This document shows, piece after piece, positions 26,327 through 28,208 of a stretch of 42,527 bases of DNA. The translations under genes and the position numbers were made by a program. Source of the stretch: a virus; IMG/VR virus record IMGVR_UViG_3300021425_000063, positions 1 to 42,527 of that record; one strand, given 5' to 3'. Position 1 is the first letter of the stretch. The number at the start of each line of letters is the position of its first letter. The notes beneath the pieces were generated by a model, which made no database searches, was not told the origin of the DNA, and was given only the letters and a program-made list of their open reading frames with translations.

Positions 26327-26469
26327 TGTACGTTAGCTCAATTGGTTAGAGCGTTCCCTCTTCGACTGGGGGAGTACAGAATGATTTCGTTTGAGGAGTA
26401 ATTAACCTTTAGAAGTCTGGAGTATCCGCTGAGGGCGGGAGGCTACAGGTTCAAATCCTGTACGTACAT
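26327..26469 (+). tRNA. tRNA-like element 1, canonical D and T arms, about 70-nt insertion
   Basis: Acceptor TGTACGT (26327-26333) pairs with ACGTACA (26462-26468). TA follows, then a textbook D arm (GCTC, AATTGGTTA, GAGC). The T arm is ACAGG-TTCAAAT-CCTGT (26445-26461). The best anticodon arm is TCCCT-CTTCGAC-TGGGG (26355-26371), with U33 and a UCG (Arg) anticodon but a T-T mismatch at its last pair. Bases 26372-26444, about 73 nt, then replace the normal 4-5 base variable loop. An alternative is an intron-like insert in the anticodon loop, since CCCTC can pair with GAGGG (26431-26435). No CCA is encoded. Confidence 0.55.
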
Positions 26470-26473
26470 TCAC

Positions 26474-26542
26474 GTAAGGGCCTATGGTAGGCGATATCTT
26501 AGGATTGTAGCGCACGAGCGGGTTCGATTCCCGTACCTTACA
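26474..26542 (+). tRNA. tRNA-like element 2, degenerate anticodon arm
   Basis: GTAAGG pairs with CCTTAC (6 bp). The T arm GCGGG-TTCGATT-CCCGT is perfect in form, and GCC-TATGGTA-GGC makes a short D arm with the usual GG. The 25 bases between them allow only weak anticodon arms, for example a CTTAGGA loop with a UAG anticodon, or TTAGGAT with AGG. The linker bases 8-9 are missing. It has no insertion, unlike its neighbours. It could be a decayed tRNA or a tRNA mimic. No CCA is encoded. Confidence 0.4.
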
Positions 26543-27323
26543 ATACCCCTCACGCCTTATGCGACTAGCTTATCGTCGGGCGCACCTGAGGACTCTTACT
26601 GTATCCGGTGGTTATTTAAGCCGTAACGCAGTACTAAGACCGAAAACTAGTAAGTAGGTCAGGAGAGCGTGTTACAACTCTATGGTAAAGGTGTAACAGT
26701 ATTGGTACTGACTATATAGTACTGGGTGATTAGTCTACCCTACATTAATTAAAGTGACGGGTATAGCTCCATACGTTGTGTGAGTCAAAGCTTAGAGGTT
26801 AGTAGCCCAGAGGAGTTAGTTAGTACTGACGAGTACTGATGAAAATGCTAAGGAAGTAGGCTTAAAGGTAGCCATCTTTTAAAGAGTAGGAAGAGACTCA
26901 CCGAGTGCGAAATGTTGCAGTAGTTAGAGGCTGTAGTGATGTGCTATAGGTGATTCGTCAGGCTCCTGTCCTTTTGGTGTAAAAACACACTTAGCAAATT
27001 ATCGATCTACCATTCAGATCATTGGGAATTGCTTAGAGCAAACCTTCTAAGAGAGCATGTAAGAGTAGAGTCGGTTACGAGGGTGCCATCGAGCATTCTC
27101 AGTACAGGTACATGTCGGGGCCTTTAATCCTGATAATATGATAATAAGGTACACCAGTTAGCAACCTTTTTCTGATGTTAACTGCGGTCAGTCAGTCCTT
27201 CGGGAGAAGCCGTGCATGTGATTGCGAAACTGACAACACGAGACATACATGATAGTCACTCGTTAAAAGAGATCATAGTGCGAAGCCAGTCTAGGCGTTA
27301 CGAGCTAAGGACTTAGATAAAAT
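26543..27323 (+). ncRNA. Large structured non-coding RNA, candidate GOLLD/ROOL-like
   Basis: About 780 nt without a protein frame hold many complementary stems. CCTCA-CGCC (26548-26556) pairs with GGCG and TGAGG (26579-26591) around a CGAC/GTCG stem. TGTTACA (26670-26676) pairs with TGTAACA (26692-26698). Others are GTACT/AGTAC (26705-26722), GGGT/ACCC (26724-26740), AGTACT-GACG-AGTACT (26822-26837), ACTC/GAGT (26896-26906), GTGT-AAAA-ACAC (26977-26988), TTGCT/AGCAA (27029-27041), long-range CATGTA/TACATG (27056-27114), GTCAGT/ACTGAC (27187-27234) enclosing a C(TTCG)G tetraloop, and ACGAG/CTCGT (27238-27263). Giant phage RNAs GOLLD and ROOL have this size, lie in phages and sit beside tRNAs. 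The structure is seen; the family name is inferred. Confidence 0.55.
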
Positions 27324-27448
27324 TTGGCGCTCCGATAGAAAGGATAGTCTCGCAGGTGTAGATCCTGTCGCACTTGAGGCCTGTCGCATAACTGGATAAT
27401 ATGCTACCAGATAAGTAGTAGATGCGGGTTCGAGTCCCGTCGGGCCAA
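27324..27448 (+). tRNA. tRNA-like element 3 with about 55-nt insertion
   Basis: TTGGC (27324-27328) pairs with GCCAA (27444-27448), and the T arm GCGGG-TTCGAGT-CCCGT (27424-27440) is canonical. TCC/GGA around GATAGAAA stands in the D-arm place but lacks the usual GG. A 5-bp arm with a 7-base loop, GCAGG-TGTAGAT-CCTGT (27352-27368), stands in the anticodon place but lacks U33. Bases 27369-27423 then replace the variable loop and include CTGG/CCAG. No CCA is encoded. It may be a tRNA mimic rather than a decoding tRNA. Confidence 0.4.
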
Positions 27449-27486: not shown

Positions 27487-27642
27487 GACCAAGAAGCCAG
27501 TGAGGCCTAGGCACACTAAGTAGAAGTGTAGCAACTCAGAGAACTATATAAGTATTGTAATCCCCCTGACTACGAGGTCCGGATTACATATAAATCTGAC
27601 GTTTTCAGACGACAAGCTTCCGGTTCAATTCCGGCTTGGTTA
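27487..27642 (+). tRNA. tRNA-like element 4 with about 90-nt insertion
   Basis: Acceptor GACCAAG (27487-27493) pairs with CTTGGTT (27635-27641) over seven pairs including one G-T. AA follows, then GCC-AGTGA-GGC as a short D arm. Next is a perfect 5-bp, 7-base-loop arm ACACT-AAGTAGA-AGTGT (27513-27529) with GTA at the anticodon position but A at 33. The T arm is CCGG-TTCAATT-CCGG (27620-27634). The 90 bases between contain TGTAATCC/GGATTACA (8 bp, 27556-27588) and TCTGA/TCAGA. A competing stem CACTGG/CCAGTG links the flank to the 5' part. No CCA is encoded. Confidence 0.45.
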
Positions 27643-27660
27643 ATTTACATTACTTACAAA

Positions 27661-28049: not shown

Positions 28050-28198
28050 TACGTGGTAAGAAGCAGAAAGGGTCTCGGTCTTGGTCTTGGTCTGGTTCTG
28101 GTTCTGGTTCTGGTTCTGGGATTTGGTCTAGGTGTGGTTCTAGGTCTTGGTCTGGGTCTGGGTCTGGTTCTAGGTCTTGGTCTAGAAGTAACAAATAA
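28046..28198 (+). CDS. Ser-Gly repeat peptide coupled to the LSm-like gene, 50 aa
   Basis: A GTG overlapping the LSm-like stop (GTGA) opens MIRGKKQKGSRSWSWSGSGS, followed by more SGS, SRS and SWS units, ending RSNK. The DNA is a GGTCTT/GGTTCT/GGTCTG hexamer tract (28072-28186). The other rightward frame over the tract would give a Gly-Leu repeat fused to the next gene, but that gene has its own ATG with AAGGAAA at 28209. Coupling and the sensible N-terminus favour the Ser-Gly frame. It is probably disordered. Function unknown. Confidence 0.55.
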   Translation: MIRGKKQKGSRSWSWSGSGSGSGSGIWSRCGSRSWSGSGSGSRSWSRSNK

Positions 28199-28208
28199 AA
28201 GGAAACTA

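Follow-up and report, generated by a model that had tools for sequence, protein, structure and literature searches.

The Locus and Its Surroundings

The window, i. e. the whole stretch of DNA that was analyzed, is a virus record of 42,527 bases with replication and structural genes of a phage; its genes include those for a T7-like RNA polymerase, a T5 A1-like protein, a DNA polymerase, a primase and an RNA ligase, in keeping with the phage setting assumed in the first-pass annotation. A search for relatives via the DNA polymerase returned none in viral_contigs and three distant ones among phages. Between 26290 and 27783 the plus strand has no open reading frame of 60 or more amino acids, which agrees with the earlier description of the 781 nt at 26543–27323 as non-coding. 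This stretch is flanked by tRNA genes, as had been proposed. Upstream, a tRNA gene with a long insert lies on the plus strand at 26327–26469 (Rfam RF00005, 42.7 bits), while downstream a plus-strand tRNA-Ile (GAU) at 27377–27448 was called by ARAGORN and reached 27.8 bits with the Rfam model, slightly under its threshold. In the upstream gene, which ARAGORN left uncalled, about 70 extra nucleotides separate the anticodon arm from the T arm, and the anticodon arm CCCUC-UUCGACU-GGGGG suggests the anticodon CGA and thus a Ser-like identity.

Several further elements were noticed nearby. A short tRNA-like element at 26484–26542 (GUAAGG...CCUUAC, T arm GGUUCGAUUCC) weakly matches the 3′ end of tmRNA. 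Another tRNA-like gene, recognized by eye, contains large inserts: at 27489–27648, the acceptor strands ACCAAG/CUUGGU and the T arm CCGGUUCAAUUCCGG enclose about 160 nt. Downstream of the RNA region, GGTCTTGGTCTGG-type repeats occur at 28070–28200 in or beside a short open reading frame. Scans for promoters and terminators gave signals no higher than those of shuffled sequences.

The 781 nt had been read as a possible giant structured RNA of the GOLLD/ROOL type, partly on the strength of more than ten perfect helices and a C(UUCG)G tetraloop. The tetraloop is indeed present (27198–27203). The helices, however, carry no weight, since the predicted folding energy of −218 kcal/mol compares with −216.2 ± 5.9 kcal/mol for dinucleotide shuffles (z = −0.30) and 8 of 20 shuffles fold as well or better; the helix count is therefore what a random sequence of such composition gives. 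Moreover, the Rfam models of GOLLD, ROOL and OLE produced no match in the region, neither at the gathering threshold nor at E values up to 5, and tRNA was the only Rfam family matched there. The conserved unit comprises merely about 151 nt and belongs to a different group, namely mimics of the GTPase-associated centre (GAC) of 23S rRNA. Despite the phage origin, the tRNA neighbourhood and a suitably long non-coding stretch, a giant RNA of this type is hence highly improbable. What survives of the earlier reading is a conserved structured phage RNA that adjoins tRNA genes, while identity and size have to be revised; covariation among homologues, which had been named as a check, is present, and the comparative signal is confined to 26846–26996.

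Architecture of the Element

The 151 nt at 26846–26996 (plus strand) almost certainly form a mimic of the GAC, which in E. coli 23S rRNA (Rfam RF02541) spans nucleotides 1050–1109, or 1051–1108 in a slightly narrower definition. This segment comprises helices 43 and 44, the site of uL11 and thiostrepton. Window positions correspond to the E. coli number plus 25797 up to 1089 and plus 25886 from 1090 onward. The assignment is based on two conserved halves, a closing helix and the covariance model R1, which was built from 51 phage sequences and matches 26844–26998 with 47.5 bits (E=3e-11), the window being one of the 51 training rows rather than a held-out sequence. Folded by itself, 26846–26996 has a z score of −1.95, and its minimum free energy structure contains the helices supported by comparison; for 26844–26998 these are the closing helix, helix 43, the arm and the helix-44 hairpin.

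All parts lie on the plus strand. The 5′ strand of the closing helix (26846–26852, E. coli 1049–1055) forms seven base pairs with the 3′ strand (26990–26996, 1104–1110), a pairing backed by covariation in the relatives. Helix 43 follows at 26854–26878 (1057–1081) with its lower stem and a GGC/GCC hairpin that carries a 9-nt loop, and its stems are paired in the window copy. It includes U1072 (26869), which triple covariation identifies as the partner of the 1092–1099 pair. The adjoining UUAAAGA (26879–26885, 1082–1088) supplies the local 1082–1086 pair (26879 with 26883), G1087 and A1088, as judged from covariation and from the invariance of A1088. An inserted variable arm then occupies 26888–26972 and is closed by a base helix of 26888–26891 with 26969–26972; it harbors a module, GUGCGAAAUG ... 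UGAUGUGC (26905–26944), that the window has in common with six other loci. The phage-specific signature UUUG (26973–26976), in which UUG is invariant and the first U is found in 132 of 135 elements, leads back into helix 44. The tip of this helix (26977–26986) consists of G1091-C1100, U1092-A1099 and the hexaloop GUAAAA (GUAAUA in rRNA), so that the triple of the window copy is of the U/U-A type.

Relatives of the Element

A distant search in phage records afforded a single match of 45 nt, between window positions 26851–26895 and a region of Acinetobacter phage ME3 that carries no annotation. Window positions 26851–26885 are identical to E. coli 23S rRNA 1054–1088 at 29 of 35 nucleotides (E=2e-4), and the ME3 copy independently aligns to the same place in helix 43 (1054–1088). 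The whole 781 nt found no match in E. coli genomes because the arm splits the similarity. Degenerate patterns of the 5′ half then retrieved 23 and subsequently 52 viral contigs, and in all but a few of these a second block, UUUGGUGUAAYAACACAC, which equals the 3′ half of helix 44, is located 57 to about 350 nt downstream. This 3′-half block alone occurs in 53 viral contigs and 8 contigs of bacterial assemblies, and a C-type block, UUUGGCGUANYAGCRCAC, in at least 120 viral contigs. With both halves required by a script, at least 135 distinct elements of 102–433 nt were obtained, almost all in phage contigs; two carriers are contigs of bacterial assemblies that may or may not be of phage origin, and the contigs are mostly metagenomic. 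Among 51 further loci on which R1 was run, the model matches the element in 33.

Named carriers include Acinetobacter phage ME3, Xanthomonas phages XacN1 and XaC1, Serratia phage BF, Erwinia SNUABM phages, Cronobacter phage GAP32, Aeromonas phage 4_4572, Pseudomonas phages pf16, UNO-G1W1 and Astolliot, and Vibrio phage 2.275.O. The hosts, which are known for the named phages only, all belong to the Gammaproteobacteria. In nearly all of these carriers nothing is annotated over the matched stretch. The element is missing from T4 and phiKZ. Paenibacillus phage Pd_22F is not counted as a member, as its record (MZ092003.1) contains genuine 23S rRNA, probably owing to misassembly or contamination.

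Tandem copies, a U/U-A type followed by a C/C-G type, were observed in two loci: at 306–770 of locus L070, and at about 2430–2670 in the locus of Astolliot, where the first copy is recognized by its 3′ end only. Upstream of the GAC mimic of ME3, no protein genes are annotated over a further 1.7 kb or so (890–2590 of the locus), which contain long inverted repeats.

Conservation of the GAC Fold

Across 51 divergent cores, 95% of the cells of the GAC secondary structure are paired, a percentage that is biased upward because the finder behind the 135 elements imposed some pairs (it demanded the helix-43 hairpin, five of eight closing pairs and a 1092–1099 type); a search demanding only the helix-43 hairpin and the motifs gave the same picture. 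Every GAC helix covaries, with changes on both sides in 17 of 19 pairs, and the covariation score of 0.678 contrasts with 0.168 ± 0.013 for shuffled alignments and no more than 0.158 when the partners are slid. All six pairs of helix 43 are formed in 100% of the 51 sequences and all show both-side changes, as do all nine pairs counted in the closing helix, which is free in sequence but covaries (90% of cells paired, with the same upward bias). Pair 1058–1080 appears as U-A, G-C, A-U and C-G, and pair 1082–1086 as U-A, C-G or A-U with one exception among the 51. U1060 and A1088 are invariant in all 135 elements.

The triple 1072/1092/1099 reads CCG in 77, UUA in 55, UUG in 2 and CUA in 1 of the 135 elements, and 1072 is consistent with 1099 in each of the 51 cores. 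The same alternatives, C/C-G or U/U-A, are found in rRNA. As position 1072 lies outside the 3′-half search patterns, the covariation of the triple is not a search artefact for the loci found with them. From the standpoint of sequence comparison, the joint change of 1072 with the 1092–1099 pair is the strongest evidence for the GAC fold, including its tertiary level.

The relationship to rRNA is also apparent from covariance models in both directions. Although trained on phage sequences only, R1 finds E. coli 23S rRNA at 1047–1112 with 58 bits (E = 2e-14). Conversely, the Rfam model LSU_rRNA_bacteria matches one relative, L044, over model positions 1078–1159 (E=6e-9 in a search of 141 nt), including the helix-42 segment AGACAGCC. 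L044 and two other short-armed members, L038 and L043, have kept, next to the GAC core, the helix-42 sequence AGACAnCCAGG/CACUGGnCGA, which in rRNA is part of the uL10 site.

Position 1067, in contrast to the fold-defining bases, varies (94 A, 34 G, 4 T and 3 C, n=135). In rRNA, A1067 is where thiopeptides bind, and both thiopeptides and the methyltransferases need it. Since A1067 varies while the bases that define the fold are fixed, selection points to the fold and not to the factor-facing loop. We know of no GAC-directed defence system that is a common threat to phages. These observations bear on the idea that the RNA is a decoy, not for L11, but for attackers or modifiers of the GAC, such as toxins, methyltransferases, thiopeptides or a ribosome-sensing defence. 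Thiopeptides and their resistance methyltransferases do target the GAC (PMC4409310) and two arms contain loops resembling the sarcin-ricin loop (SRL; see below), yet the base that these agents require is replaced in 41 of 135 elements, which makes such a decoy improbable.

Departures from rRNA and the Inserted Arm

Within large-subunit rRNA, helix 44 is contiguous. In the phage RNAs an arm of 34–365 nt interrupts it after G1089-U, the helix continues from UUUG, and the RNA stands alone; it is therefore a mimic and not an rRNA. In addition, position 1101 is A in 132 of 135 elements. Because these departures (G1089-U, arm, UUUG and A1101) are common to the relatives, they point to one phage RNA lineage that descended without repeated capture of host rRNA, as far as sequences can tell. 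They also argue against a host 23S rRNA fragment, contamination or an intron-split rRNA. The homology to rRNA is clear and genuine 23S rRNA does occur in the Pd_22F phage record, but the signature is kept in 132–135 of 135 elements, compensatory changes are seen throughout, many complete phage genomes carry the element and no intron family matches, so that this origin can practically be dismissed. An intron in an rRNA was rejected for the further reason that the base helix of the arm covaries.

This base helix has a fixed register, its pairs 1–3 being formed in 132, 131 and 123 of the 135 elements with all four Watson-Crick types, by which comparison the arm is shown to be a real helix. Beyond its base, the arm is modular. 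In the GUGCGAAAUG/UGAUGUGC module, neither strand varies between the window and five aligned relatives, whereas the stem that they enclose does; this module and a second one, GGCACCCCG-tetraloop-CGGUAAGGCUG, are common to unrelated phages. Sarcin-ricin-like UACGAGAGG hairpins occur three times in about 21 kb of arm sequence versus five times in 3.84 Mb of locus sequence. Those inside arms belong to L027 (reverse strand, about 3054) and L040 (reverse strand, 11055 and 11109). In view of these hairpins, the mimicry may in some members cover the factor-binding site with both of its rRNA elements. When compared with E. coli 16S, 23S and 5S rRNA, the arms gave no significant match. A candidate peptidyl-transferase loop, GGCACCCCGGAGACGGUAAGGCUG, was dropped upon inspection, as its variants are simple hairpins capped by loops of the GNRA or UAAC type.

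For a plain sponge, the arm is far too large and modular. In one alternative, uL11 or the GAC fold is a mere handle: the RNA would serve as scaffold for a phage ribonucleoprotein (RNP), and the activity, directed for instance at ribosomes or at their assembly, would reside in the variable arm. A covarying helix that presents 34–365 nt at one fixed site, modules found in unrelated phages and the sarcin-ricin-like hairpins of L027 and L040 would fit such a scaffold. As the arms are too different for one evident activity and the shortest has only 34 nt, this alternative appears rather unlikely, albeit worth keeping in mind ahead of the others.

Gene Neighbourhood and Possible Function

A tRNA gene is found within 1000 nt of 80 of the 135 elements (about 60%), in 79 of these 80 cases on the same strand, which suggests that the element is co-transcribed with tRNAs. 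At 11 loci a tmRNA is present. In 38 phage records no L11 gene was detected by a test that was positive in 14 of 14 control genomes; bL12 scored above the cut-off in 6 of the 38 records.

Ribosomal protein leaders use rRNA mimicry (PMC7247131), and some elements are located shortly before an open reading frame. Hence, the element might act in cis in the manner of such leaders and control downstream phage genes when L11 is free. An L11 leader would lie upstream of the gene of the protein it binds, whereas the 38 phage records are devoid of an L11 gene. A tRNA gene comes next in many phages, and the downstream genes differ between carriers. A cis-acting leader is accordingly quite unlikely.

The best explanation, to which we assign a probability of roughly 0.55, is that of an RNA which stands alone in the phage and to which host uL11 binds, probably so that the protein is titrated or retained in a phage RNP. 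As the GAC fold is kept, binding of uL11 is very probable; that titration, rather than another use, is the purpose is a tentative suggestion with somewhat less than even odds. The C-terminal domain of L11 binds tightly to H43/H44 (PMC3592554), and the 58-nt region folds autonomously (PMC4409310). The RNA would probably be made as part of a tRNA-cluster transcript and then processed, whereupon the GAC-like core could capture host uL11 via the C-terminal domain of the protein. In this way, uL11 may be drawn off ribosomes or ribosome assembly, or be kept in a phage RNP, and the few members with the helix-42 sequence might perhaps draw off uL10-bL12 as well. L11 is essential to RelA, while its loss has only a moderate effect on EF-G (PMC5365698). 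On L11-poor ribosomes, RelA would conceivably not be activated and the stringent response not be started, and the handling of factors would be altered, which may favour the phage. Titration faces a stoichiometry problem in view of the abundance of ribosomes, unless large amounts of the RNA are produced or its target is newly made L11. The helix-44 differences from rRNA at 1089, 1090 and 1101 could alter uL11 binding.

A bolder reading is that many tailed phages possess a portable factor-binding centre, i. e. a uL11 RNP off the ribosome that resembles the stalk base and captures translational GTPases or RelA, or redirects them to phage-modified ribosomes, with some members joined by uL10-bL12 and others equipped with a sarcin-ricin-like loop in the arm. 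This joint reading, including its variants, is speculative and unlikely. In more general terms, many phages may possess an RNA that acts as a decoy of, or a substitute for, this functional centre of ribosomes.

Comparison with Known Systems

To our knowledge, no viral RNA has been reported that copies a functional ribosomal centre and has its tertiary triple under selection. The element is absent from Rfam 15, and full-text searches of the openly licensed PMC literature turned up no earlier account of it. The RNA is widespread, yet resides in stretches that annotators left empty. If the uL11 reading is true, it would represent a new phage route to act on translation or the stringent response. 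Simple binding assays would suffice to address it, since the 58-nt rRNA domain, L11 and compensatory triple mutants are classic tools.

With the GAC of 23S rRNA the element shares the helices, the hexaloop, the 1082–1086 pair, the invariant positions 1060 and 1088 and the base triple. It differs in being free-standing in phages, in the arm within helix 44, in the signature G-U/UUUG and A1101, in a closing helix of unrelated sequence and in the lack of conservation of A1067. GOLLD and ROOL are likewise RNAs of phages and prophages near tRNA islands, with function unknown (PMC12286853), but neither sequence nor model matches, and the element has 102–433 nt with an rRNA domain mimic as its core. 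The stable T4 RNAs rnaC and rnaD, whose function is unknown, also come from a phage tRNA cluster; they were rejected as relatives because the model does not match them.

The leaders of L20, S15, S4 and eL15, among which an L11 leader is not described, offer a closer parallel, in that an RNA copies the rRNA binding site of a ribosomal protein (PMC7247131). These leaders, however, regulate ribosomal protein genes in cis, in contrast to the element, whose phages are without an L11 gene in the 38 records. RNA-based anti-CRISPRs (PMC10651486) and the ToxI mimic of phiTE (PMC3475682) exemplify phage RNAs that capture host proteins by resembling a host RNA; here, the imitated RNA is ribosomal and the capture of L11 is predicted from the mimicry. 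Finally, phage-encoded ribosomal proteins, especially bL12 (PMC6375957), indicate that phages supply or target the same stalk region by means of a protein, for which the element would be the counterpart made of RNA.
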